64,000 nucleotides of DNA, from the NCBI RefSeq assembly GCF_020400825.1, contig NZ_JAINVH010000001.1:372001-436000 (forward strand), in the 5' to 3' direction. The notes beneath the pieces were generated by a model. The model was not told the DNA's origin and did not search any database. It was given only the letters and a program-made list of their open reading frames with translations. This DNA comes from Streptomyces sp. HPF1205. GTDB lineage: Bacteria > Actinomycetota > Actinomycetes > Streptomycetales > Streptomycetaceae. Shown here piece by piece: positions 6,524 to 19,540 of this stretch (position 1 is its first letter; every line of letters starts with the position of its first letter). Position numbers and translations under genes: made by a program.

Positions 6524-8077
6524 ATGATCGTGGTCATGACCGAAACCGCAGTGACGAACAGCGCGACAGCCTCCCCGTCCCACGGCACCCCGGCCGGGTC
6601 CGCCCGCGGCCACGCCGGGCCGGCCGGCGAGGGCAGTGCGGGCCGAACCGGTACCGGCGAAAGGTCCGGCAGGGCCGGACCGCGGACCGGCCTGCTGCTG
6701 GCCGTGATCCTGGGCGGCCAGTTCATGTCCCTGCTCGATGTCTTCATCGTCAACGTGGCCGCGCCCACCATCCGCTCCGACCTGCACGCCTCGGGCTCCG
6801 CCCTCCAGCTCGTCATCGCCGGCTACACCATCGCGTACGCGGTGCTGCTGATCACCGGGGCGCGGCTGGGCAACCTGCTGGGGCACCGCCGGCTGTTCCT
6901 CGCCGGCCTCGCCCTGTTCACGCTGTCGTCACTGGCCTGCGGGCTCGCGCAGAACACCGGGGAGCTGATCGGCTTCCGCTTCGCGCAGGGCACCGGTTCC
7001 GCGCTGATGATCCCGCAGGTGCTCAGCCTGCTGCAGATCACCTTCACCGGCGAGGCCCGCACCCGCGCGATGAGCGTGTACTCCGCGGTGCTGGCCTCGG
7101 GCGCCGCGCTCGGCCAGTCGCTGGGCGGGGTACTGGTCAGCGCCGACCTGTTCGGCACCGGCTGGCGGCCGGTGTTCCTGGTCAACGTGCCGATCGGCGT
7201 GCTGATGCTGGTCGCCGTCCCCCGGGTGCTGCCCGCCGACCGGCCCGGTCCGCGGGCGGGCGGGCGCGGCCTGGACCTGCCGGGGCTGACGGTGCTGGCC
7301 GCGGCCGTCACCCTGTTCACCGTGCCGCTCGTGCTCGGGCAGGAGGAGGGCTGGCCGCTGTGGGGCTGGGTGTGCCTGGCGCTGAGCGCGGTGCTGTTCG
7401 CGCTGTTCATGGTGCTGGAGTCACGCCTCGCGCGGCGCGGTGGCGCCCCGCTGGTGTCCACCCGGGTGCTGCGGGCGCCGGGCATGGCCCGCGCGGTCGC
7501 CGTGATCGCGCTCAGCATGGCGGTCAACGCCGGCTTCCTGTTCGCCATCGCCCTGCACCTGCAGTCCGGCCTCGGGTACAGCGCGCTGCGTACCGGGCTC
7601 ACCTTCGTGGCGTGCGCGGTCACCTTCGGCGGCGTCGGCCTCAACTGGTCGCGGCTGCCGGTCGCGTGGCGGCCATGGCTGGCGGTGACCGGTCTGGCGC
7701 TGGCGGCCCTGTCGTACGTGGACATGGCGCTGGCGCTGCGCGGTGGCGGTGACGGCGGCGCCTGGACGTACCTGGGCCTGATGGCCCTGGGGGCCGGTCT
7801 CGGCCTGGCGTTCAGCCCGACGTTCGCCCTCGCCCTGGCCAAGGTGGCTCCCGCGGACGCCGCCGACGCCAGCGGGCTGCTGGCCACGGTGACCCAGCTC
7901 GGGCAGCTCATCGGCGTGGCGACCTTCGGCACGCTCTTCCTGAACCGGCTCCAGACGGCCTCCGCCCACCCGTCGGCGCACGCCGTCGCCGTCACCCTGG
8001 CCGTGCTCGCCGCGGTGTCGGGGCTCGGCGCCCTCATCGCGGTGGAGCGGTGGCGGCGGACGACGCCCGCGCGCTGA
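6524..8077 (+). CDS. MFS drug:proton antiporter (DHA2-like)
   Basis: Integral membrane exporter of about 517 residues. After a polar Ala/Gly/Ser-rich N-terminal tail of about 50 residues come some 14 hydrophobic segments. The first helix carries QFMSLLDVFIVNVAAPTIR, which matches the DHA2 family signature LDxTIVNVALP, and GARLGNLLGHRR is motif A between helices 2 and 3. Family members expel hydrophobic or cationic toxicants using the proton gradient. ATG 6524 is used; ATG 6536 is an equally plausible start, and neither has a clear ribosome site. It is divergent from the XRE regulator. The substrate is unknown. Confidence 0.9.
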   Translation: MIVVMTETAVTNSATASPSHGTPAGSARGHAGPAGEGSAGRTGTGERSGRAGPRTGLLLAVILGGQFMSLLDVFIVNVAAPTIRSDLHASGSALQLVIAGYTIAYAVLLITGARLGNLLGHRRLFLAGLALFTLSSLACGLAQNTGELIGFRFAQGTGSALMIPQVLSLLQITFTGEARTRAMSVYSAVLASGAALGQSLGGVLVSADLFGTGWRPVFLVNVPIGVLMLVAVPRVLPADRPGPRAGGRGLDLPGLTVLAAAVTLFTVPLVLGQEEGWPLWGWVCLALSAVLFALFMVLESRLARRGGAPLVSTRVLRAPGMARAVAVIALSMAVNAGFLFAIALHLQSGLGYSALRTGLTFVACAVTFGGVGLNWSRLPVAWRPWLAVTGLALAALSYVDMALALRGGGDGGAWTYLGLMALGAGLGLAFSPTFALALAKVAPADAADASGLLATVTQLGQLIGVATFGTLFLNRLQTASAHPSAHAVAVTLAVLAAVSGLGALIAVERWRRTTPAR

Positions 8078-8113
8078 ACAACGGGCTGGCGGCTCGTCCC
8101 ACTTCGTCCACCC

Positions 8114-8146
8114 TGCGTCCACCGTGCGTCCACCGTGCGTCCGCCG
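8114..8146. repeat. Three 11-bp tandem repeats between convergent genes
   Basis: TGCGTCCACCG occurs three times in tandem (the last copy has one change) in the roughly 290-nt space between the 3' ends of the MFS and glycosyltransferase genes. It is probably a slippage product. No gene is visible in this space. Confidence 0.7.
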
Positions 8147-8363
8147 TTCCTCCGTCGTGCCGAGGGCCCGGGCCTGGAGCCCTCGGCATCCCGGCGCTGA
8201 TGCCCTCGGCGCCGCACCAACGGGCGGGCGGGCGGACGGGGGTCCGGATCGGCGGACACGCCGACCGGCCGATGCGGTCCGACGGCCGCCGAGGCGGGCT
8301 GCGGCCGGGGACGCGGGGGATACGGACACCGGCGCCCGAACGCGGCCCCGCACCGCCCGGAGC

Positions 8364-9866
8364 TCATGAACTCCGCGCCGGTGAGCGGCCGCCGCGGCGG
8401 ACCGGCGTGATCCGGCGGGGCCTGTCGCGCATGGCGCGTGCGGCCCGCGATCCCGCCATTGCCAGAAAGGCCAGGCCGACGAGCGGATAGGCCGCGGCGA
8501 GGACCATTTCGGCGGCGTTCTCCCGCAGTTCGGGCCGGTGGACGCCGTGCGGTACCGACCAGATCACGTAGCTGCAGAAGACCAGGGCGACCGCCATCGC
8601 GGCGGCGAGCCGGCCCGCGGAGCGGCGCCGCGATGCCGCCGCGGGTGCGAGCCCGGGCGGGTCCTGGGCACGTACGCGGGCAGCCGCAGGCGCGCGGTCC
8701 GCGGGGACGTCGTCCCGTACCGCCTCCGTCACCAGCAGGACCACCACGGGCACCGCCCACACCCAGTGGTGGGACCACGACACGGGGCTGACCAGGAGCG
8801 CGGTGACCGCGCAGGCCAGGGTCGCCCACGCGGTCCCGTTCCGCAGGGACCGGCCGGCCAGGAGGGCGGCGACCGCGCAGGCGAGGCCGGCCGCGGCCAC
8901 CACCAGCGACAGCAGCAGCCAGGCCGGGCCCGGGGCGGCGGTGTGGCCGAGACGGGCCACGACCCCGCGCAGGGACTGGTTGGCGACGTTCTCGGCGCGG
9001 CCTGGACGCCCCGGCGCCCAGGCGACGCTCGTCCAGTACCGGCGGGAGTCGTGAGGCAGCGCCACCGCCCCGATGAGCACCGTGGCGGCGAATGTGCCCG
9101 CGGCGACCAGCGCGCGGCGCAGATACGGGGTGCCGCGCGCCAGCAGCCCCGCAACGGCGAGCAGCACCACGAACAACGCCGGGGTGAGCTTGATCCCCGC
9201 GGCGATCCCGATGCCGACACCCGCCCAGCGCTGGGCGGGGGCGCGGGTCAGGTCCCACAGCACCAGGACCGCCAGCAGCAGGTTGATCTGGCCGTAGCGC
9301 AGGGTGGTCCAGACCGGTTCGCTCCACACCGCGAGCGCGGCGACGGCCAGGACGGCGGCCGGCCGGCCCGGGCGGCCCACCAGCCGCAACGACAGGGCCG
9401 CGAGCGCGACGGTGAGCAGCAGGTTCGCGGCGGTCACCAGCGTCCGCATGGCGCCGACGCCCACCCAGGTCAGCGGTACGAACAGCAGACCCGCGAACGG
9501 CGGGTAGGTCATCGGCAGCCCCGCGGTCATCACCCGCAGCCCGTACACGTCCCCGCCGGACCGCACGGTCCAGCCCACCGCCCGGTACACCATCACGTCC
9601 AGCAGCGACACCCGCAGCGCACGCTGCGCCGTCCACACCGCGGCGAACGACACCAGGCACATCGCCGACGCCCCCCACGCCTGCCAGGCCCGCCCTCTCC
9701 GCCCCGGCCATCCCGACTGCCGCGTGCTCCCCGGCTGCCGCGACCACGACCACGACCGCGAGGCCCGCGGCCCGGAGGTCCGTCCGCCAGGCCGCGGCCC
9801 GGCCCGTCGAGCAGGGTCGTCGGGCCTCCGCCCGGGTCCGCGGGACCACCGCCGTACGCCGTCCAC
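8364..9866 (-). CDS. GT87-like polyprenol-phosphate-mannose mannosyltransferase
   Basis: Polytopic membrane glycosyltransferase of about 500 residues, GT-C fold, resembling GT87 (DUF2029) enzymes that use polyprenyl-phosphate mannose to mannosylate lipoglycans outside the membrane. About ten hydrophobic helices are visible. Family-like features are LLDVMVYRAVGWTVRSGGDVYG near the first loop (with the conserved acidic residue), MTYPPFAGLLFVPL, the RYGQINLLLAVLVLWDL stretch, AAGIKLTPALFVVLL and SPVSWSHHWVWAVP. The GTG at 9866 is chosen because AAAGGAG lies 9 nt upstream on the minus strand. It stands alone between the convergent MFS gene and the second tRNA-Ala. Confidence 0.85.
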   Translation of the reverse strand: MDGVRRWSRGPGRRPDDPARRAGPRPGGRTSGPRASRSWSWSRQPGSTRQSGWPGRRGRAWQAWGASAMCLVSFAAVWTAQRALRVSLLDVMVYRAVGWTVRSGGDVYGLRVMTAGLPMTYPPFAGLLFVPLTWVGVGAMRTLVTAANLLLTVALAALSLRLVGRPGRPAAVLAVAALAVWSEPVWTTLRYGQINLLLAVLVLWDLTRAPAQRWAGVGIGIAAGIKLTPALFVVLLAVAGLLARGTPYLRRALVAAGTFAATVLIGAVALPHDSRRYWTSVAWAPGRPGRAENVANQSLRGVVARLGHTAAPGPAWLLLSLVVAAAGLACAVAALLAGRSLRNGTAWATLACAVTALLVSPVSWSHHWVWAVPVVVLLVTEAVRDDVPADRAPAAARVRAQDPPGLAPAAASRRRSAGRLAAAMAVALVFCSYVIWSVPHGVHRPELRENAAEMVLAAAYPLVGLAFLAMAGSRAARAMRDRPRRITPVRRGGRSPARSS

Positions 9867-10224
9867 CGTGCCGACTCCTTTCCGCTTCCCTCCCCGCTCG
9901 TCCCTTCTCGTCCCCTCCCGGGCTTCCTTTCCGGCCCACCCCGGCTTCGGGTGCGGGCGACAGGTCCCGGTCCTCAGCCTCAGCCTTGGCCCGGGCCGTG
10001 GCCTTGCCCTCGGCCTTCGGGACCGTCGGCCACCGGGCCTGACGGCCCCTCGGGCCGGCCCGGTTCGCGCGGCGGCGGGCGGCGCCCGTTGTCCGGCCGT
10101 TTCCGCCCATCCGGGCCCGAACCCCGAGGTCGTCGCCTTGCCGCAGCCGCAATCGATTTGCCTCACCGGCCCCGGGGCCGTGTAAAGTGTCCCGAGTCGC
10201 CCGCCCCACGGGCCGACACCACGC
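9867..10224. other. Intergenic region before second tRNA-Ala
   Basis: About 360 nt without a gene. It holds the ribosome site of the glycosyltransferase gene (9876-9882), a pyrimidine-rich tract (about 9875-9945) and the tRNA promoter at its right end. Nothing else is recognisable. Confidence 0.6.
10158..10188 (+). promoter_or_regulatory. Promoter of second tRNA-Ala
   Basis: TTGCCT (10158-10163) and TAAAGT (10183-10188) with a 19-bp spacer, 36 nt upstream of the tRNA. The AT-rich -10 stands out from its surroundings. Confidence 0.55.
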
Positions 10225-10297
<73 letters not shown>

Positions 10298-10302
10298 CGA
10301 GT

Positions 10303-10349
10303 GCGAGGGCGAGGCGGTCCGCGGACAACGCGGACCGCCCCGCCCTCGC
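10303..10349 (+). terminator. Two-tier hairpin after second tRNA-Ala
   Basis: Outer stem GCGAGGGCG (10303-10311) with CGCCCTCGC (10341-10349) and inner stem CGGTCCGCG (10315-10323) with CGCGGACCG (10329-10337), loop GACAA. The outer arms match those after copy 1, so the duplicated block extends beyond the tRNA. Confidence 0.75.
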
Positions 10350-10750
10350 CGTTCCCCGCCCGGGTCGCGTCGGCGCGCTGCGAGCTTCGCCAGCCGCACT
10401 CCATTTTTGACCCGTGGCCGTGGCCGAGGCCGTGGGTGCGGGACGTCGGGGTCGTGCGGTCCGTGGGACGAGGGCGTCGCCGTCATGCGGGTACTCGCGG
10501 TTGGACGCATCGCGCACTGCGGCTCGGCGCATCGGGTGATCCGGTCCTGGGCGTTCCGCGCACTCCGGGCCGAGCGCACGCGGCATCCGGCGGTCGGCGG
10601 TGGTGCGTACGCGGGTCCCCCCGACGGGTCGGGCCGGGGTCCGACCGGGCCGCTGGTGTCACGCTCCCGTACCGGATCCCGGGCGACCGATCATCAGGAC
10701 ATGTGCCGGTGCCGAGACCGGACCGCGCCACCATGCCGCCGTGGTGGCCG

Positions 10751-10942
10751 CACGGCACCACGCCGCAGCGGTGGCCGCACCGGACCCGGACCGGCAAGGT
10801 TCGGCACCTGCTGGGGACGCCCGACCTGCCGGTCGAACGCATGGCCGTCCAGGTCGGATTCGGTTCCCCCACCGCCTTCCGTGACCGCTCCGAGCGTCCG
10901 ACCGGAAGCAGCCCCTACGCTTACCTCCGCGCCTTCGGGTAG
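10751..10942 (+). pseudogene. Remnant of GlxA/AraC-type regulator (C-terminal HTH)
   Basis: One frame ending in TAG at 10940-10942 encodes HGTTPQRW, then VRHLLGTPDLPVERMAVQVG and FGSPTAFRDRSERPTGSSPYAYLRAFG. This is the usual end of GlxA-type AraC regulators, spanning the linker helix and second helix-turn-helix. The upstream two thirds of such a protein (DJ-1/PfpI-like domain and first HTH) cannot be found in any frame, and key positions are altered (S for F after DR). I read it as a 5'-truncated relic. Confidence 0.7.
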
Positions 10943-10996
10943 GGTCCGTGGCCGGGCCGATCACGGGCCGGCCGCCATGGACCGGGCCACGATCGG

Positions 10997-11031
10997 CTTT
11001 GACCGTCCGCTGTCACGGTGAGTTGTCAAAG
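10997..11031. promoter_or_regulatory. Inverted repeat CTTTGAC / GTCAAAG
   Basis: Seven-base arms at 10997-11003 and 11025-11031 separated by 21 nt, about 220 nt upstream of the S53 protease. It could be a bipartite operator or the terminator of the decayed regulator. Confidence 0.35.
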
Positions 11032-11069
11032 CCCGCTTCTCTACGGTTCCTTGACCTTCTCTTGGTGAT

Positions 11070-11088
11070 TTCATGCCCCTGGCATGAA
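11070..11088. promoter_or_regulatory. Palindromic operator candidate TTCATGCC-N3-GGCATGAA
   Basis: Perfect 8-bp arms around CCT, lying 13 nt after a TTGACC hexamer and 160 nt before the S53 protease start. Size and symmetry fit a dimeric repressor or activator site. Confidence 0.5.
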
Positions 11089-11248
11089 CTGATCGGCGAA
11101 AGAGTATCGCTCTGCGGTGCCTGCCGTACGCATAGCGGCAACGCGGAGCGTCAATGCACAGCAACGCCACAGCGCCAACGCACAGCGGCAACCGCGGCGC
11201 AACCGCGCAGCACAGCTCACGCGACAATTCGCTTCGCATGGGGGTTAC

Positions 11249-13186
11249 ATGAGATTCGAGCGCAGAAGAACGCGCACGGCACTGGTGGCGGCCGCCGCGC
11301 TGCCACTGGTCGCCGGCGCGCTCGCGCTTGGCAGCCAGTCCGCGTCGGCCGACCAGCCCGCGCGCCAACTGCTCGCCGGTACCAGGCCCGCATGGGCGAC
11401 CGCGAAGGCGGACAAGGGTGCCGCGGCCCGCTCGGGCAAGGTGACGCTCCGGGTCTACCTGGCGGGCAAGGACGCCAAGGGCCTCGCGGCGTTCGCCCGG
11501 AACGTGTCGGACCCGAGTTCGGCTTCCTACGGTCACTACTTGACGGCCGCTCAGGCACAGTCCCGGTTCGGTGCCACCAAGGCTCAGATAGCCGCGGTCA
11601 CCTCCTGGCTGAAGTCCTCCGGCCTGAAGGTGACCGGCACCAACCGGCACTACATCACCGTCACCGGTGATGTCGCCGCCGCCGAAAAGGCGTTCGGCAC
11701 CCAGCTCCACAACTTCACCAAGGGCGGCCACGTCTACCACGCCCCGGCGAGCACGGCCTCCGCGCCGGCCTCCGTGCACGGCGCGGTGCTCACCGTCACC
11801 GGTCTGGACAACTCCCCGAAGCTGTCCCACCACGACGACACGCTGCCGCCTCCCGGCGCGGCATTCGTCAACGCCGGGCCGTTCTCCTCGTACTACGGCT
11901 CGAACGTCAACCCCAGCCTGCCGTCCGCGTTCGGCATCCAGGCGCCGTACGCGATCAGGGGCTACACCGGTGAGCAGCTGCGTGCCGCCTACGGCGCCGG
12001 CCGCTACACCGGCAAGGGCGTGAAGGTGGCGATCACCGACGCCTACGCCTCGCCGACGATCGCCGACGACGCCGCCACGTACGCCGCGCGGCACGGCGAC
12101 AAGCCCTACAAGCACGGCCAGTTGCGCCAGGTGCTGCCCAAGGACTACAACTCCACCGACGCCTGCGACGCGTCCGGCTGGTACGGCGAGGAGACCCTCG
12201 ACGTCGAGGCCGTGCACGCCGTGGCGCCCGACGCGGGCATCGTGTACGTCGGCGGGGCCTCCTGCAACGACAACGACCTGCTCGACGCCCTCAGCAAGGT
12301 CGTCGACCACCACCTCGCCGACATCGTCTCCAACTCCTGGGGCGACATCGAGCAGAACGAGACGCCGGACATCGCGGCCGCCTACGACCAGGTCTTCCAG
12401 ATCGGCGCGGCCCAGGGCATCGGCTTCTACTTCTCCTCCGGCGACAGCGGCGACAACGTCGCCTCCTCCGGTACGAAGCAGGTCGACACCCCCGGGAACT
12501 CGCCGTGGGCCACCTCCGTCGGCGGCACCTCGCTGGCGGTCGGCAAGCACGACAAGTACGAGTTCGAGACCGGCTGGGGCACCCAGAAGGGCGTGCTCGC
12601 GCCCGACGGCAAGAGCTGGGCCACCCCCGCCTACACCTCGGGCGCCGGCGGCGGCACCAGCAAGATGTACGCACAGCCGTCCTACCAGCGCGGCATCGTG
12701 CCGGACTCGCTGTCGCTGGCCAACGGCGGCACGACCAAGCAGCGCGTCGAGCCCGACATCGCCGCGGTGGCCGACCCGAACACCGGCTTCCTGGTCGGAC
12801 AGACCCAGACGTTCCTCGACGGGTCCGTCAAGTACGGCGAGTACCGCATCGGCGGCACCTCGCTGGCGGCGCCGGTGATCGCCGCCGTCCAGGCCTTGAC
12901 CCAGCAGGCGCGAGGCGGTCTGCCGATCGGCTTCGCGAACCCGCTCATCTACGCCCGGTACGGCACCCCCGCGTACCACGACGTGACCGACCACCCCTAC
13001 GGCCGGCAGACGCTGTCCGAGGTCCGGGTCGACTACGCCAACGGCGAGAACGCGGACAACGGCACCATCACCTCCCTGCGGGTGCTCGGGCGTGACGCCT
13101 CGCTCGTCGCCACCCGCGGCTACGACGACGTGACGGGTGTCGGCACGCCCACCAGTCACTACGTCCAGGCCTACGGCCGGCGCTGA
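11249..13186 (+). CDS. Secreted S53 (sedolisin) serine-carboxyl protease
   Basis: Secreted protease precursor of 645 residues. A signal peptide occupies residues 1-34 (MRFERRRTRTALVAAAALPL... AxA-type cleavage near ASA-D). An activation propeptide follows, with the Pro-kumamolisin pattern SYGHYLTAAQAQSRFGAT and FGTQLHNF. The catalytic domain has the Glu and Asp of the triad in GEETLDVEAVHAVAP (about residue 313), SNSWG with the oxyanion Asp region, SGDSG, and the nucleophile in GGTSLAAPV (about residue 535). A calcium-site region is expected at the C-terminus (HDVTDHPYG). Sedolisins are active at acid pH. The start is ATG 11249, after GGGG. The long dyad-rich leader suggests regulated expression, and a strong terminator follows. 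Confidence 0.93.
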   Translation: MRFERRRTRTALVAAAALPLVAGALALGSQSASADQPARQLLAGTRPAWATAKADKGAAARSGKVTLRVYLAGKDAKGLAAFARNVSDPSSASYGHYLTAAQAQSRFGATKAQIAAVTSWLKSSGLKVTGTNRHYITVTGDVAAAEKAFGTQLHNFTKGGHVYHAPASTASAPASVHGAVLTVTGLDNSPKLSHHDDTLPPPGAAFVNAGPFSSYYGSNVNPSLPSAFGIQAPYAIRGYTGEQLRAAYGAGRYTGKGVKVAITDAYASPTIADDAATYAARHGDKPYKHGQLRQVLPKDYNSTDACDASGWYGEETLDVEAVHAVAPDAGIVYVGGASCNDNDLLDALSKVVDHHLADIVSNSWGDIEQNETPDIAAAYDQVFQIGAAQGIGFYFSSGDSGDNVASSGTKQVDTPGNSPWATSVGGTSLAVGKHDKYEFETGWGTQKGVLAPDGKSWATPAYTSGAGGGTSKMYAQPSYQRGIVPDSLSLANGGTTKQRVEPDIAAVADPNTGFLVGQTQTFLDGSVKYGEYRIGGTSLAAPVIAAVQALTQQARGGLPIGFANPLIYARYGTPAYHDVTDHPYGRQTLSEVRVDYANGENADNGTITSLRVLGRDASLVATRGYDDVTGVGTPTSHYVQAYGRR

Positions 13187-13195
13187 CCGAACGGC

Positions 13196-13231
13196 GGGGC
13201 TGTGCCGCGCGGCGACGCCCGGCACAGCCCC
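13196..13231 (+). terminator. Terminator of the S53 protease gene
   Basis: GGGGCTGTGCC (13196-13206) pairs perfectly with GGCACAGCCCC (13221-13231) around a 14-nt loop, 10 nt after the stop codon. No U tract. Confidence 0.8.
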
Positions 13232-13260
13232 GCCACCGGCGGCGGGCAGGACCTGAGCGA

Positions 13261-13298
13261 GAGGGCCGGTCACCGGAGCGATCCGGTGCCCGGCCCTC
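13261..13298. terminator. Second strong hairpin before the leuS leader
   Basis: GAGGGCCGGTCACCGG (13261-13276) folds with CCGGTGCCCGGCCCTC (13283-13298) with one internal mismatch and a 6-nt loop. It probably insulates leuS from protease transcription. Confidence 0.65.
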
Positions 13299-13343
13299 CG
13301 CCGGGGCGGGCGATCCTCGGTGCGGCACGCCCCGGCGCTGCGG

Positions 13344-13349
13344 TAACCT
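13344..13349 (+). promoter_or_regulatory. -10 box of the leuS leader
   Basis: TAACCT fits TANNNT and ends 6 nt before the leader-peptide ATG, so transcription would begin at or next to that A (leaderless leader peptide). No convincing -35 is seen. Confidence 0.5.
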
Positions 13350-13355
13350 GAGGTC

Positions 13356-13394
13356 ATGCGAGCTGTGAGCCTCCTGCTTAGCGAGCCGCGCTGA
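13356..13394 (+). CDS. leuS leader peptide (MRAVSLLLSEPR)
   Basis: A 12-codon ORF with three consecutive leucine codons, CTC CTG CTT, all different, at codons 6-8. Its TGA lies inside the first arm of the hairpin 13385-13416. This is the arrangement of a classical attenuator: a ribosome starved for Leu-tRNA stalls on the leucine codons and changes the folding of the downstream RNA. Comparative studies have predicted such leader peptides upstream of leuS in some streptomycetes. The ORF is too short to be expected by chance next to a U-tract terminator and leuS. Confidence 0.85.
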   Translation: MRAVSLLLSEPR

Positions 13395-13442
13395 CCACGA
13401 ACCACGTCAGTGCGGCACCCCTCCTGCGCGAGGGGCTTTTTT
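13385..13442 (+). promoter_or_regulatory. leuS transcription attenuator (hairpin plus terminator)
   Basis: Hairpin 1: GCCGCGCTGAC (13385-13395) pairs over 11 bp (one G-U) with GTCAGTGCGGC (13406-13416). Hairpin 2: CCCCT (13418-13422) pairs with AGGGG (13431-13435) and is followed by C and six T (13437-13442), a rho-independent terminator of a kind rare in this GC-rich genome. Hairpin 1 contains the leader stop codon, so ribosome position decides whether it forms. I could not identify a clear antiterminator pairing by eye. Confidence 0.8.
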
Positions 13443-13525
13443 GTTTCCGAAAGGGCCGCTGACCAGGTATGCCGGCGCGGGCTCACAGCCGCAGCCGTCA
13501 CGACATCGATGGAGTACCGAGGACG

Positions 13526-16402
13526 ATGAGCGACACCACCCCGGCCGCCGAGACGGCTGCGCCCCATCGCTACACGGCCGAGCTGGCCGCGGAGATCGAG
13601 GGCCGCTGGCAGGACTACTGGGAGGAGCACGGCACCTTTGCCGCGCCCAACCCGAGCGGAGAACTGGACGGCGACCCCGAGCTGGCCGTCCGGCCCAAGA
13701 AGTTCATCATGGACATGTTCCCGTACCCCTCGGGCGCGGGACTGCACGTCGGCCACCCCCTGGGCTACATCGCCACGGACGTCTTCGCCCGCTTCCTGCG
13801 GATGACCGGCCACAACGTGCTGCACACCCTGGGCTTCGACGCCTTCGGCCTGCCCGCCGAGCAGTACGCCGTCCAGACCGGCACCCACCCGCGGGTCTCC
13901 ACCGAGGCCAACATGGCCACCATGAAGCGGCAACTGCGTCAACTGGGTCTGGGCCACGACCGCCGCCGCTCCTTCGCCACGATCGACCCCGAGTACTACC
14001 GCTGGACCCAGTGGATCTTCCTGCAGATCTACAACGCCTGGTACGACGCCGCCGCTGGCAAGGCCCGCCCGATCGGCGAGCTGATCGCCGAATTCGAGGC
14101 CGGTACCCGGCGCACCCCGGACGGCCGGCCCTGGGCCGGGCTGACCGAGGCCGAGCGTGCCGACGTGCTGAGCGGGTACCGCCTGGCGTACACCTCCCAG
14201 TCCCCGGTGAACTGGTGCCCCGGCCTGGGCACCGTCCTGGCCAACGAGGAGGTCACCGCCGAGGGACGCTCCGAGCGCGGCAATTTCCCCGTCTTCAAGG
14301 CCAACCTGCGCCAGTGGATGATGCGCATCACGGCGTACGCCGACCGGCTGCTGTCCGATCTGGACGAGCTGGACTGGCCCGAGGCGATCAAGCTGCAGCA
14401 GCGCAACTGGATCGGCCGCAGCGAGGGCGCCCGGGTGGAGTTCCCGGTGCACGGCGCCGCCGACGGCGAGCACGCGATCACGATCTTCACCACCCGCCAG
14501 GACACCCTGTTCGGCGCCACCTACATGGTGCTGGCCCCCGAGCACGAGCTGGTCGACACCATCGTGCCCGCCGCCTGGCCGGCCGGCACGCACGAGGTGT
14601 GGACCGGCGGCCACGCCACTCCCTCCGACGCCGTCGCCGCCTACCGCAAGCAGGCCGCCGCCAAGTCCGACGTCGAGCGGCAGGCCGAGGCCAAGGACAA
14701 GACCGGCGTGTTCACCGGTGCCTTCGCCGTCAACCCGGTCAGCGGCGAGCCCGTCCCGGTCTTCATCGCCGACTACGTACTGATGGGCTACGGCACCGGC
14801 GCGATCATGGCCGTGCCGGCGCACGACACCCGTGACTTCGCCTTCGCCCGCGCCTTCGAGCTGCCCATGCGGTGCGTGGTCGAGCCCACCGACGGACGCG
14901 GCACCGACCCGGAGACCTGGGACGACGCCTTCGTCTCCTACGACGCGAAGATCGTCAACTCGGCGTCCGCCGAGATCTCGCTGGACGGCCTGGGCGTGGT
15001 CGAGGCCAAGGCCGCCGTCACCGCCTGGCTGGCCGAGCGGGGCATCGGCGAGGGCACCGTCAACTACCGTCTGCGCGACTGGCTGTTCAGCCGCCAGCGG
15101 TACTGGGGCGAGCCCTTCCCGATCGTTTACGACGAGGACGGCGTGGCGCACGCCCTGCCCGACTCGATGCTGCCCGTCGAACTGCCCGAGGTCGACGACT
15201 ACAGCCCCCGCACCTTCGACCCGGATGACGCCGACACCTCCCCGGAGACCCCGCTGTCGCGCAACGAGGCCTGGGTCGACGTGGAACTGGACCTGGGCGA
15301 CGGGCCGAAGCGCTACCGGCGCGAGACCAACACCATGCCCAACTGGGCCGGCTCCTGCTGGTACGAGCTGCGCTACCTGGACCCCCACAACACCGAGCGC
15401 GTCGTCTCGCCGCAGGCCGAGTCGTACTGGATGGGGCCGCGCGAGGGACAGCCGGCAGGCGGCGTCGACCTGTACGTCGGCGGCGCCGAGCATGCCGTAC
15501 TGCACCTGCTGTACGCCCGCTTCTGGCACAAGGTGCTGTACGACCTGGGTCACATCTCGTCCTTCGAGCCGTTCCACAGGCTGTACAACCAGGGCATGAT
15601 CCAGGCGTACGTCTACCGTGACGCGCGCGGGATCGCCGTGCCCGCCGTCGAGGTGGAGGAGCTGGACGGCCGCTACTACTTCCAGGGCCAGCAGGTCTCC
15701 CGGCTGCTGGGCAAGATGGGCAAGTCGCTGAAGAACGCCGTCACGCCCGACGAGATGTGCGCCGAGTACGGCGCCGACACGCTGCGGCTGTACGAGATGG
15801 CCATGGGCCCGCTGGACGTGTCCCGGCCCTGGGACACCCGCGCGGTCGTCGGCCAGTACCGACTGCTGCAGCGCATGTGGCGGAACATCGTGGACGAGCG
15901 GACCGGCGCGGTCACCGTTACCGACGCCGAACCGGACGAGGACACACTGCGCGCGCTGCACAAGGCGATCGACGGGGTCACCGGTGACATGGCCGGGATG
16001 CGCTTCAACACGGCCATCGCCAAGATCACCGAGCTGAACAACCACCTGACCCGGTCCGGCGGCGCCGTCCCGCGCGCCGTCGCCGAGCCGCTGGTCCTGC
16101 TGATCGCCCCGCTGGCCCCGCACTTCGCCGAGGAGCTGTGGGCCCGGCTGGGCCACACCGGCTCCCTGGCGCACACCGCCTTCCCCGTCGCCGACCCCGC
16201 CTACGTCCAGGACGAGACGGTCACCTGCGTCGTCCAGGTCAAGGGCAAGGTCAAGGCCCGCCTGGAGGTTCCGCCGAACGTCTCCGACACCGACCTGGAG
16301 GCCCTGGCACTGGCCGACCCCGCCGTAGTCGAGGCAGTGGGCGGCGCACCGGTCCGCAAGGTGATCGTCCGGGCGCCCAAGCTGGTGAACGTGGTGGTCT
16401 GA
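13526..16402 (+). CDS. leuS: Leucyl-tRNA synthetase
   Basis: Class Ia aminoacyl-tRNA synthetase of 958 residues that charges tRNA-Leu with leucine. The HIGH motif is HVGH (residues 74-77, within [16 protein letters not shown]). The CP1 editing domain contains the T-rich and [12 protein letters not shown] ([20 protein letters not shown]) signatures. The KMSKS loop is KMGKS near residue 730. The anticodon-binding and C-terminal domains end in [16 protein letters not shown], as in complete bacterial LeuRS. ATG 13526 follows GAGGA; an in-frame ATG at 13469 would add 19 atypical residues. Expression is expected to respond to leucyl-tRNA charging through the leader and terminator just upstream. Single-gene unit with its own terminator. 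Confidence 0.98.
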
Positions 16403-16427
16403 CAGCGGTAGCGGGGCACCGGTCCCT

Positions 16428-16472
16428 AGGGGCAGGTTCGGGGATCCGCCGGATCCCGGAGCCTGCCCCTTT
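16428..16472 (+). terminator. leuS terminator
   Basis: AGGGGCAGG (16428-16436) pairs with CCTGCCCCT (16462-16470), enclosing a GGGATCC/GGATCCC inner stem, and is followed by TT. Confidence 0.8.
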
Positions 16473-16543
16473 GCGGTTACGGTGGATGTGACGCACGGGA
16501 CGGTTCGGTGCCCGCGGGCGCCGCGAGACCGGAGGAGTCGTCT

Positions 16544-17203
16544 GTGGAGATCGGCGCTGTGCTTGTGCTCGTCCTCTTCCTCGCCTTCGTCGTCCTGGCA
16601 ACGGTGGCGACGGTCCGTACCGTGCGCAGGGTGAGACTCACCGTCGCTCGAAGCACCGCGCAGGCCCGCCGCGTGGTCGAGGACAGCCGGCTCCGCGCAC
16701 GCCGCTACACGGTCATCGGCCCCGCTGCGACACTCGCCCAGTTGCGCCTGGACCTGCGCGCCTCCATCGACGGCACCTCCGCAGCCCTTGAGGCCGGCCA
16801 CGGTGAGGACCCCTCCCTCTCCGAGGCCGTCGCGCTGTTCGGCCGCCTCAACGACCAGGCCCGCGCACTCGACTCCGAGCTGAAGCTCCTCGAACGCGAG
16901 CCCGACCGTACCCGCCTCGCCGAACGCCTTCCCGCTCTCACCGAACGGGCCCACCGCATCACCCGCGCCGCCGACTCCCTGCGCTGGGCCGCCCACGACC
17001 GCGCCCGCCGCTTCGCCGACGACGAACTCACCGCTCTCAGCCGCGACATTGAGCTCGAAGCGGACGCCCTGCGGCACTGGACGCCGGCGGCCGCCGCCGA
17101 TCCCGGCCCGGAACCGGCCCCACGCCTTCGAAAGAGCCCCGGCCCGGCGGGCGCGCCCTCTCAGGCCGAAAGACTTCCGGAGCCGGAACCGCCGGCGGAG
17201 TGA
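16544..17203 (+). CDS. Membrane-anchored coiled-coil protein, unknown function
   Basis: A 219-residue protein with one N-terminal transmembrane helix (IGAVLVLVLFLAFVVLATVATV), a basic patch, then mostly helical Ala/Leu/Arg/Glu-rich sequence with heptad character (LNDQARALDSELKLLEREPDRTRLAERL), ending in a disordered Pro-rich tail. GTG 16544 follows GGAGGAG at 6 nt, which fixes the start. A -10-like TACGGT lies at 16478-16483. I do not recognise a family. The position between leuS and degV is common in streptomycetes as far as I recall. A cytoplasmic scaffold tethered to the membrane is possible, but that is only an inference. Confidence 0.75.
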   Translation: MEIGAVLVLVLFLAFVVLATVATVRTVRRVRLTVARSTAQARRVVEDSRLRARRYTVIGPAATLAQLRLDLRASIDGTSAALEAGHGEDPSLSEAVALFGRLNDQARALDSELKLLEREPDRTRLAERLPALTERAHRITRAADSLRWAAHDRARRFADDELTALSRDIELEADALRHWTPAAAADPGPEPAPRLRKSPGPAGAPSQAERLPEPEPPAE

Positions 17204-17404
17204 TCCCCGACCTGGCCCGCGGCAGGGAGCCGATGCGCCGACGGCCGCCCCGCAGCGGCAGACCGGGCCGAAGGATCCGCCGCCGGGACACGGCTGTTCC
17301 CGACTCGCGCAGACCGCAACGGCGCCGGCTCCGAAGCGGCCGACCGCGCGGCGCGGACGAGCCCGGAGTGTCGCCCGGCCGACCTGCCGGGTAACCTCCC
17401 GCAC

Positions 17405-18250
17405 ATGTCCCCGCACGTCGCCATCGTCACGGACTCCACGGCCTACCTGGGGCAGGACGCGCTCCTGCGCCACGGCATCAGCGTGGTCCCGCTCACCGTG
17501 GTGATCGGCGACGAAGCCTTCGAGGAGGGCACCGAGATCTCCGCGCCCGCCGTGGCCCGGGCCTTGCAGCGACGGCGCCCCGTCACCACTTCCCGGCCCG
17601 CTCCCGCCGAGTTCGCCACCGCCTACCAGGCGGCCGCGGCGTCCGGTGCCGAGGCCATCGTCTCCCTCCATCTGTCCTCCGACTTCTCCGGTACGTACGA
17701 CGCGGCCACCGTCGCCGCCCGCTCCGCGCCAGTCCCGGTGCGCGTTGTCGACACCGGAATGGTCGCCATGGCCCTCGGTTTCACCGTCCTGGCCGCCGCC
17801 GAGACCGCGGAGGCAGGCGGCACCCCCGACGAGATCGTCGCCGCGGCCGAGAAGCGCGCGGCCGACACCTCGGCCTTTTTCTACGTCGACACGCTCGACT
17901 ACCTCCGCCGCGGCGGACGGATCGGCGCGGCGCAGGCCCTGTTCGGCTCCGCTCTCGCGGTGAAGCCGCTGCTCCGGCTCGCCGACGGGCGCATCGAACT
18001 GCTCGAGAAGGTCCGCACCGCCTCCAAGGCCCTCGCCCGCCTCGAAGAGGTCGTCGTCGAACAGTCCGGCACCCGCCGGGTCGCACTCGCCGTGCACCAT
18101 CTCGCCTCCCCCGATCGCGCCGGCACTCTCGCCGACCGCCTGCGCGAGCGTGTGCCAGGTCTGTCCACGCTCGTTGTGAGTGAAGTGGGGGCCGTGATCG
18201 GCGCCCACGCCGGCCCTGGTCTGCTCGGAGTGGTGGTCTCGCCCCACTGA
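17405..18250 (+). CDS. DegV family fatty-acid-binding protein
   Basis: A 281-residue DegV protein, related to FakB, which presents fatty acids to a FakA-type kinase or carries them in the cytoplasm. The N-terminus VAIVTDSTAYL carries the DST motif. TSRPAPAEF (TSQPS-like, with the ligand-contacting Thr/Ser) and VVDTGMVAMALGFTV (VVDS-like) follow, then FFYVDTLDYLRRGGRIG and the C-terminal VVSEVGAVIGAHAGPGLLGV (typical IGxHxGPG). The length is normal. TAACCT ends 7 nt before the ATG, suggesting a leaderless transcript. No fakA-like partner is seen nearby. Confidence 0.92.
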   Translation: MSPHVAIVTDSTAYLGQDALLRHGISVVPLTVVIGDEAFEEGTEISAPAVARALQRRRPVTTSRPAPAEFATAYQAAAASGAEAIVSLHLSSDFSGTYDAATVAARSAPVPVRVVDTGMVAMALGFTVLAAAETAEAGGTPDEIVAAAEKRAADTSAFFYVDTLDYLRRGGRIGAAQALFGSALAVKPLLRLADGRIELLEKVRTASKALARLEEVVVEQSGTRRVALAVHHLASPDRAGTLADRLRERVPGLSTLVVSEVGAVIGAHAGPGLLGVVVSPH

Positions 18251-18307
18251 GCCGGCATGGACAGCGTGCCACCGATCACACAGCGTGACACGCGATCGGC
18301 ATCGAAC

Positions 18308-18323
18308 TCACTCTCGAGAGTGA
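18308..18323. promoter_or_regulatory. 16-bp perfect palindrome upstream of comEA
   Basis: TCACTCTCGAGAGTGA, perfectly self-complementary, 6 bp before the first DnaA box and about 85 bp before the comEA start. Likely a dimeric regulator site. Confidence 0.55.
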
Positions 18324-18328
18324 TCGAG

Positions 18329-18355
18329 TTATCCACAACCGCCGAGTTGTCCACA
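18329..18355 (+). promoter_or_regulatory. Two DnaA boxes (TTATCCACA, TTGTCCACA)
   Basis: TTATCCACA at 18329-18337 is the perfect E. coli-type box and TTGTCCACA at 18347-18355 is the preferred Streptomyces box. They are in the same orientation with 18 bp between starts. They lie in the degV-comEA intergenic region beside the 16-bp palindrome, in DNA that is AT-richer than its surroundings. Confidence 0.7.
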
Positions 18356-18406
18356 GATTTCGATCAAGATCGTTCCGGCCGGTCCGCGCGGGCCATCATC
18401 GAGTCC

Positions 18407-19540
18407 ATGAACACATCGGACTCATCGACCATTCAGGCCTTCGGGGCTCGTCGTGCCGCAACTGCCAGGGCGATCACGACCGTTGTCAGACCGAGTCGTG
18501 CCCGCGCGTCGCGGGAGGCGGCCGTGGCGCACACCCGTGCCCGGGCGGAAGCCGTTTTCGGCCCCCCGCACCCACCGGATCCACGGATGTGGCTTCGCGC
18601 ACCGGCCAAGACAGTCACCGACGGTCATCGCGTCGGCGGCGGGACGACGGGCGCGGCCGTGCCGCAGCATCCCGATCGAGCCCCGACCGGGAGGCGGGGT
18701 GTCCCTCCCCGCGCCCATGCCCCCGCCGGGGGGACGCCTGCCCCCGCCCGCCCGGCCGCCGTCCCCGCGGGGCGGACGGCAGCGGGTCTCGGCGGCAGCG
18801 GCAAGTGGCTGGACATCACTGCCTTACACCCGACACCGCACGCACCGGCCCGGCCGGGACAAGGCCCAGGGCCGTCGCCGCTGCCGGACGCGCCCGCGTC
18901 CAGCGGTACACGTCTGGGACGGCTGCGTGCATGGTTGTACGTGCGCTGCGGCTTGGAGCCGAGGACAGTGCTGGCACTCGCCGTGGTCCTCGTCGTGGCC
19001 ACGGGCCTGGGCTTCCACCACTACTGGACCGGGCGGCCCCGAACCGTGCGTGTGCCGCCGCCCGTGCCCGCCCCCGTCCGGGTCCGTTCCGCGGCGCCGG
19101 CTCTGCCCGCCCAACTCACCGTGGATGTCGCGGGAAAGGTGGCCCGGCCGGGCCTGCGCCACCTTCCCAAGGGTTCCCGAGTCGCCGACGCCTTGGCCGC
19201 AGCGGGCGGGCCACTTCCCGGCGCCAACACCACCACGCTCAACCTCGCGCGCCCCCTCGCGGACGGCGAACAGATCCTCGTCGGTGTCGCCGCACCCGCG
19301 CCCGCCCCGGACGACCCCGCGGCGCTCCCGGACGGGTCCGCTGCCTCCGCGCCGCTCGACCTGAACACGGCCGGCGTCGCCCAACTCGACGCCTTGCCCG
19401 GGGTCGGCCCCGTCCTCGCCCAGCACATCCTCGCCTTCCGCGCCCAGCACGGTCCCTTCACCTCCCTCCAGCAACTCCGCCAAGTGCCAGGCATCGGAGA
19501 TCGTAAGTTCTCCACGCTCAAATCCCTGGTGCACCCATGA
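18407..19540 (+). CDS. comEA: Competence protein ComEA-like (SLBB + helix-hairpin-helix)
   Basis: A membrane-anchored DNA-binding protein of 377 residues. The N-terminal half is a disordered Pro/Ala/Arg-rich cytoplasmic region. A transmembrane helix (VLALAVVLVVATGLGF) then leads to an SLBB-type domain (LTVDVAGKVARPGLRHLPKG... LADGEQILV) and a C-terminal double helix-hairpin-helix (LDLNTAGVAQLDALPGVGPVLAQHILAFR... LRQVPGIGDRKF). In competent bacteria ComEA binds incoming double-stranded DNA on the outer face of the membrane. ATG 18407 is preferred; the frame is open upstream to 18257, through the DnaA boxes. It overlaps comEC by ATGA, so the two are translated together. Confidence 0.9.
   Translation: MNTSDSSTIQAFGARRAATARAITTVVRPSRARASREAAVAHTRARAEAVFGPPHPPDPRMWLRAPAKTVTDGHRVGGGTTGAAVPQHPDRAPTGRRGVPPRAHAPAGGTPAPARPAAVPAGRTAAGLGGSGKWLDITALHPTPHAPARPGQGPGPSPLPDAPASSGTRLGRLRAWLYVRCGLEPRTVLALAVVLVVATGLGFHHYWTGRPRTVRVPPPVPAPVRVRSAAPALPAQLTVDVAGKVARPGLRHLPKGSRVADALAAAGGPLPGANTTTLNLARPLADGEQILVGVAAPAPAPDDPAALPDGSAASAPLDLNTAGVAQLDALPGVGPVLAQHILAFRAQHGPFTSLQQLRQVPGIGDRKFSTLKSLVHP

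Follow-up and report, generated by a model that had tools for sequence, protein, structure and literature searches.

The window analysed here, a stretch of 64,000 nucleotides from Streptomyces sp. HPF1205, contains the leucine--tRNA ligase gene leuS, preceded by a short leader region (Table 1). The match of leuS to its profile scores 893 bits against a cut-off of 548, and the longest open reading frame covering the gene begins at 13469, not at 13526. The leader codons read ATG CGA GCT GTG AGC CTC CTG CTT AGC GAG CCG CGC TGA, and 6 nt lie between the end of TAACCT and the leader ATG. Hairpin 1:2 has 11 pairs, including a single G-U at 13390/13411. One base separates it from the 6-bp terminator, and one C stands between the terminator and the six T. 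The initial annotation had described a 12-codon leader with CTC CTG CTT, an 11-bp hairpin enclosing the leader stop codon, and a separate terminator with six T ahead of leuS; all three are confirmed, the last occupying 13418-13442. From these parts we infer a short RNA of about 87 nt that would end near 13442.

Table 1. Positions of the leuS leader features in the window.
Feature	Position	Strand	Remarks
-10 box TAACCT with TGCGG in front	13339-13349 (box 13344-13349)	+	promoter, predicted from sequence
Leader ORF, MRAVSLLLSEPR and stop, 12 residues	13356-13394	+	predicted leaderless
Control codons CTC CTG CTT	13371-13379	+	
Hairpin 1:2, strand 1, GCCGCGCTGAC	13385-13395	+	holds stop TGA, 13392-13394
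Hairpin 1:2, strand 2, GTCAGTGCGGC	13406-13416	+	
Terminator hairpin 3:4	13418-13435	+	CCCCTC (13418-13423) pairs with GAGGGG (13430-13435)
Terminator loop, candidate antiterminator strand	13424-13429	+	
U-tract, six T	13437-13442	+	predicted 3' end of short RNA
GAGG, Shine-Dalgarno-like site of leuS	13519-13522	+	putative
leuS, leucine--tRNA ligase, TIGR00396	13526-16402	+	start ATG chosen by the authors

This arrangement, a Leu-rich short leader ORF directly upstream of leuS with a hairpin and U-tract terminator between the two, is that of the LeuL2 type. As in classical attenuators, the control codons specify the amino acid of the downstream gene. The 91-nt leader folds better than shuffled sequences (z = -2.9; 2 of 200 shuffles were equally good), and the window holds just two runs of six, one of T, in the leuS leader, and one of A. 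The rarity of U-tract terminators that the initial annotation stated for the genome was thus examined within the window. For the pattern TGCGNTANNNTN6RTG the window has one copy where 0.06 would be expected, and 6 of 100 shuffles contained one; this count is descriptive because the pattern was framed after leaders had been seen. A generic scan for sigma-70 promoters and terminators gave nothing exceeding chance; for terminators in 8000-18500 it returned 3 sites versus 2.2 in shuffles, which is not significant. The reality of the leuS terminator is settled by conservation.

Upstream of the leader, 13195-13300 contains two GC-rich inverted repeats without a U-tract. They are downstream of a gene (11117-13186) that has no NCBIfam match and that by motif resembles, we presume, a secreted sedolisin-type protease.

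Distribution among genomes

Sixty-one genomes were searched for LeuS, and 50 stretches upstream of it (L004-L053) were examined. In 47 of the 50 a leader with adjacent Leu codons lies behind a TANNNT box. One further stretch (L026) has a Leu-Pro-Leu leader instead, and no leader was found upstream of leuS in two others, L034 and L045. A covariance model, R1, was built on 45 of the 50 loci (alignment A1), whose rows were chosen with the TANNNT filter. The five dropped were L026, L034, L045, and L041 and L050, in which leaders are present but outside the filter.

R1 matches all 197 genomes sampled from the window's order. In the class it matches 189 of 394 genomes and 85 of 138 genera; 205 of the 394 gave no match, under stricter filters that lose weak matches. 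As 40 of the 189 belong to the window's own family, 149 of 354 genomes outside that family carry a match. In the phylum sample there are 16 matches in 246 genomes, three of them outside the class (L187, L188 and L189). The first two stand before LeuS, with TIGR00396 as the best family. The leader of the third, a weak match in genome G586, is another one: it reads MNRTATIFLLHLVLIT and has a hairpin and a T-tract. No LeuS was found in the stretch read, and this leader is perhaps a branched-chain amino acid attenuator.

From the class matches listed, 60 regions from 59 genomes were chosen, spread over genera. LeuS is downstream in 59 of them; in the remaining one (L128) the sequence stops at the edge of its contig. 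Among the 59 LeuS pieces, 24 are 53-72% identical to the LeuS of the window. For the other 35 TIGR00396 is the best NCBIfam family, judged from the fetched piece in 34 cases and from a longer record for L146, which lies in a masked stretch. The possibility that these class matches stand before valine or isoleucine ligases was rejected on the same family assignment.

A scan of a named collection with a narrow pattern returned 21 stretches, from Streptomyces, Actinomadura, Actinoallomurus, Phytoactinopolyspora and several MAGs, with two labelled Nocardiopsis and Propionibacteriales. All five of the stretches given to R1 matched, and for one of them (L170) the position ahead of leuS was checked. 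The counts below come from a set of 98 leaders, comprising 26 of L004-L053 (23 being A1 rows), 7 of L055-L105, the 60 class leaders (L106-L165) and these 5 pattern stretches.

The two leuS copies that stood without a leader have features of their own. In L045 (genome G054, a class member) TACCCT lies 7 nt before a GTG that is a possible leuS start, and because of this spacing leuS may itself be leaderless there. Five other genomes of the same family (f6) had no R1 match in the phylum sample, and one of them, G420, gave a weak match in the class search. L034 is the second leuS copy of genome G006. It is 81% identical to the window's LeuS over the N-terminal piece, lies beside a transporter-like reading frame, and is possibly a resistant copy.

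The conserved plan of the leader

The spacing of the -10 box is nearly invariant. TANNNT ends 6 nt (67 leaders) or 7 nt (19 leaders) ahead of model position 1 in 86 of the 98 leaders, and no other offset between 0 and 59 has it in more than 2. Because the A1 rows were chosen by TANNNT, the 60 class loci, selected without regard to the box, give the fairer count for leaderless geometry: 33 have it at 6 nt and 16 at 7 nt, together 49 of 60. The transcript probably begins with the A at 13356, the first base of the leader start codon, or with a base adjacent to it. The TGCG ahead of TANNNT is conserved as well (T in 72, G in 73, C in 74 and G in 91 of 96 leaders, the last being the G at -2 before the -10 box). 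In the leaders compared, no -35 box stood out at a fixed position. TGCG directly before TANNNT may be an extended -10 element of leaderless promoters.

The initial annotation had named absence of the Leu codons from relatives as grounds for abandoning its reading. The codons are conserved, in orders that vary among relatives (CTC CTG CTT, CTT CTG CTT, CTG CTC CTT). The third is CTT in 88 of 98 leaders, and in 53 of the 60 class leaders, yet CTT makes up only 1.9% of the 321 Leu codons in the leuS pieces of 58 loci. In the model alignment the distance from the last Leu codon to strand 1 of the hairpin is 5 nt in 97 of the 98 leaders. The leader stop is placed less strictly. It ends at base 10 of strand 1 in 43 of the 60 class leaders and at base 1 in 8 (L106, L109, L123, L124, L130, L150, L158 and L161); in 9 it is elsewhere or unplaced. 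A stop deep within the hairpin was considered as an essential part and rejected, since those 8 leaders, in which the stop only just reaches the hairpin, keep the GCCGC foot. Such a position is usual but not essential.

Compensatory change in the hairpin and terminator is strong. Double-sided changes were found in 11 of the 17 pairs of 1:2 and 3:4, amounting to 78 cells versus 12.2 in shuffles, with 98.3% of cells paired, in an alignment that was itself fitted to the tested structure and in which 4 of 102 rows are opposite-strand matches of the hairpin. The narrower alignment A1 gave a weaker signal, with 3 double-change cells versus 0.4 and one pair with a double change.

Two groups can be told apart among the LeuS pieces that follow the class leaders: 24 resemble that of the window, and 35 make up the other group. 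Mean identity over the N-terminal pieces is 66% within and 40% between groups. The leaders do not follow this division: for the 32 of equal length, identity is 0.834 within and 0.828 between the LeuS groups, and it may be saturated by constraint. Has the enzyme been exchanged behind the switch? Or, has the switch been copied? Either would account for the sequences, and the presence of the leader before two LeuS groups means that the switch may have outlived enzyme replacement. Genome G423 carries both LeuS groups, and a separate attenuator copy precedes each (L146 and L147). On balance we favour, with some reserve, the view that the leuS leader is one ancient, class-level RNA switch of near-fixed plan (TGCGNTANNNT, 6-7 nt, a leaderless start codon, Leu codons ending in the rare CTT, 5 nt, the GCCGC foot of the hairpin, and the terminator) that may have outlived replacement of LeuS.

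A proposed switch and its alternatives

The most likely function of the element is ribosome-mediated attenuation by charged tRNA-Leu. The RNA would begin with the A of the leader start codon or a base adjoining it, so that ribosomes could enter at a bare 5' end. When charged tRNA-Leu is ample, the ribosome would pass the three Leu codons to the stop and leave. Hairpin 1:2 would then form and hold strand 2, the terminator would form, and the RNA would end near 13442. When charged tRNA-Leu is short, the ribosome would stall at the Leu codons, above all at the rare CTT, and its leading edge would cover the GCCGC foot of strand 1, freeing strand 2. By pairing with the terminator loop, the freed strand would hold back terminator formation, so that leuS is transcribed. 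The leading edge of a ribosome usually lies at +15. A stall at the first Leu codon would therefore leave hairpin 1:2 intact, which counts against the mechanism.

The last step, pairing of strand 2 with the loop, is the weakest. Bases 13410-13415 can pair with 13424-13429 (2:3), at -6.2 kcal/mol versus -10.1 for the terminator; being weaker, 2:3 could act only by forming first. In the 68 of 98 leaders with a 6-nt loop and an 11-nt strand 2, this register pairs in about 91% of cells (90.7%) and a register one position off in 21-22%, while a shift of two positions still pairs in 68-69%. Over 28 distinct combinations, 82 of 2000 shuffles reach the observed score. An energy test used 89 of the 98 leaders, collapsed to 65 distinct cases. 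The native mean was -3.02 versus -3.31 for the loops of other leaders, with the native lower in 28 of 65; with shuffled loops the mean was -2.64, the native being better in 30 of 65. As foreign loops were no worse than native ones, the energy test gives 2:3 no support. Strand 1 offers an alternative, 1:3, in which 13387-13391 would pair with 13426-13430 at -7.4 kcal/mol. The 2:3 antiterminator is our leading guess, and the register counts are suggestive.

The failed loop swap favours a switch without 2:3, in which 13367-13373, around the Leu codons, would base-pair with 13432-13438 in the 3' arm of the terminator, and the outcome would depend on whether a ribosome is present on the leader. This long-range pairing belongs to the minimum-energy structure of the whole leader, at -38.6 kcal/mol. 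However, ribosomes occupying the Leu codons would then raise termination, the opposite of what a shortage of leucine calls for. The leader sequence at these codons also varies among relatives. We regard this switch as unlikely.

Less probable still is a constitutive partial terminator behind a non-regulatory leader, where a fixed readthrough would set the level of leuS and the Leu codons would be incidental. An experiment on another Streptomyces leader speaks for it: in S. coelicolor the codons of the ilvB leader were mutated with no effect. This result, and those for leuA in S. coelicolor, which were not consistent with classical attenuation, also count against the stalling mechanism (both told in PMC1262725, in part). 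Such a terminator, however, gives no reason for what is kept among the sampled class members, namely the Leu codons, the preference for CTT and their distance from the hairpin. It is hard to reconcile with these and we consider it improbable.

A tRNA-sensing T-box or a protein-bound leader, in place of ribosome sensing, has next to nothing in its favour here, even though T-boxes control most synthetase genes in Firmicutes (told in PMC1262725, in part). The leader has no Rfam match at gathering scores, which only two tRNAs reach in the window. At 87 nt and with a conserved ORF, it presumably lacks the length of a T-box and differs from one in shape.

The reading of the initial annotation, a leuS attenuator with a leaderless Leu-Leu-Leu leader, is supported as the best one, and we put the probability that the element is a LeuL2-type leuS transcription attenuator, working as in the stalling mechanism proposed above, at roughly 0.85.

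Relation to known attenuators

With the E. coli trp and Salmonella leu attenuators the leuS leader shares control codons, a U-tract terminator and rare Leu codons used as control codons, and it may share their competing hairpins. Unlike it, the trp and leu leaders begin with a 5' UTR that carries a Shine-Dalgarno site, and their antiterminator takes the terminator stem, whereas the candidate antiterminator of the leuS leader would take at most the loop.

Much closer relatives are in print, as the initial annotation had anticipated in calling the class of element not new (PMC1262725 and PMC8079986, each in part). Seliverstov et al. (2005) predicted leuS attenuators in two species, S. coelicolor and S. 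avermitilis, with a leader peptide, antiterminator and terminator upstream of leuS (PMC1262725, in part). Droste et al. (2021) described eight leader peptides in S. lividans TK24 (PMC8079986, in part). One of them, LeuL2 (SLIV_24828), lies before leuS, reads MRAVRLLLSEPR and stop, is leaderless, and has a hairpin and a run of uridines downstream (PMC8079986, in part). The leader in the window is identical to it in 11 of 12 residues, the exception being R5 to S5, and agrees in gene, place, hairpin and uridine stretch. In S. lividans the leaderless start comes from 5'-end RNA-seq (PMC8079986, in part), and a 5' end at the leader start is reported for that species only; in the window it is deduced from the sequence. 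The leaderless start put forward in the initial annotation is thus probably right, given the kept 6-7 nt spacing of the box, but it was presented as an addition and is already published for the S. lividans orthologue. From these two studies, in the parts drawn on, the element in the window is a further copy of a known attenuator, start included, and its novelty is largely gone, the leuS attenuator being already known in Streptomyces. Other leader peptides of S. lividans are also leaderless (PMC8079986, in part), as is that of the C. diphtheriae ilvB leader (PMC5784534, in part).

The cysteine leaders of mycobacteria are likewise actinobacterial, but have Cys codons and belong to different genes. 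They are reportedly the subject of Canestrari 2020, by whose title they are leaderless. Shell 2015 proposed the cysteine-rich leader ORFs of mycobacteria as cis attenuators (PMC4633059, in part), and Seliverstov et al. (2005) saw no conserved terminator hairpin in these leaders (PMC1262725, in part).

A class-wide account of the leuS attenuator was not found in the literature, as far as the partial texts extend. Lopatovskaya et al. (2010), said to compare attenuation across amino acid and aminoacyl-tRNA operons, may contain one.

Taken singly, the finding is a textbook-style attenuator; the interest lies in its wide conservation, in about half of the sampled class. This breadth would justify an entry of its own as an RNA family, since the leader in the window matched none in Rfam. 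As a compact leaderless attenuator, it would offer a clean system for studying how a ribosome starting on a bare 5' end could be timed against RNA polymerase within 87 nt.
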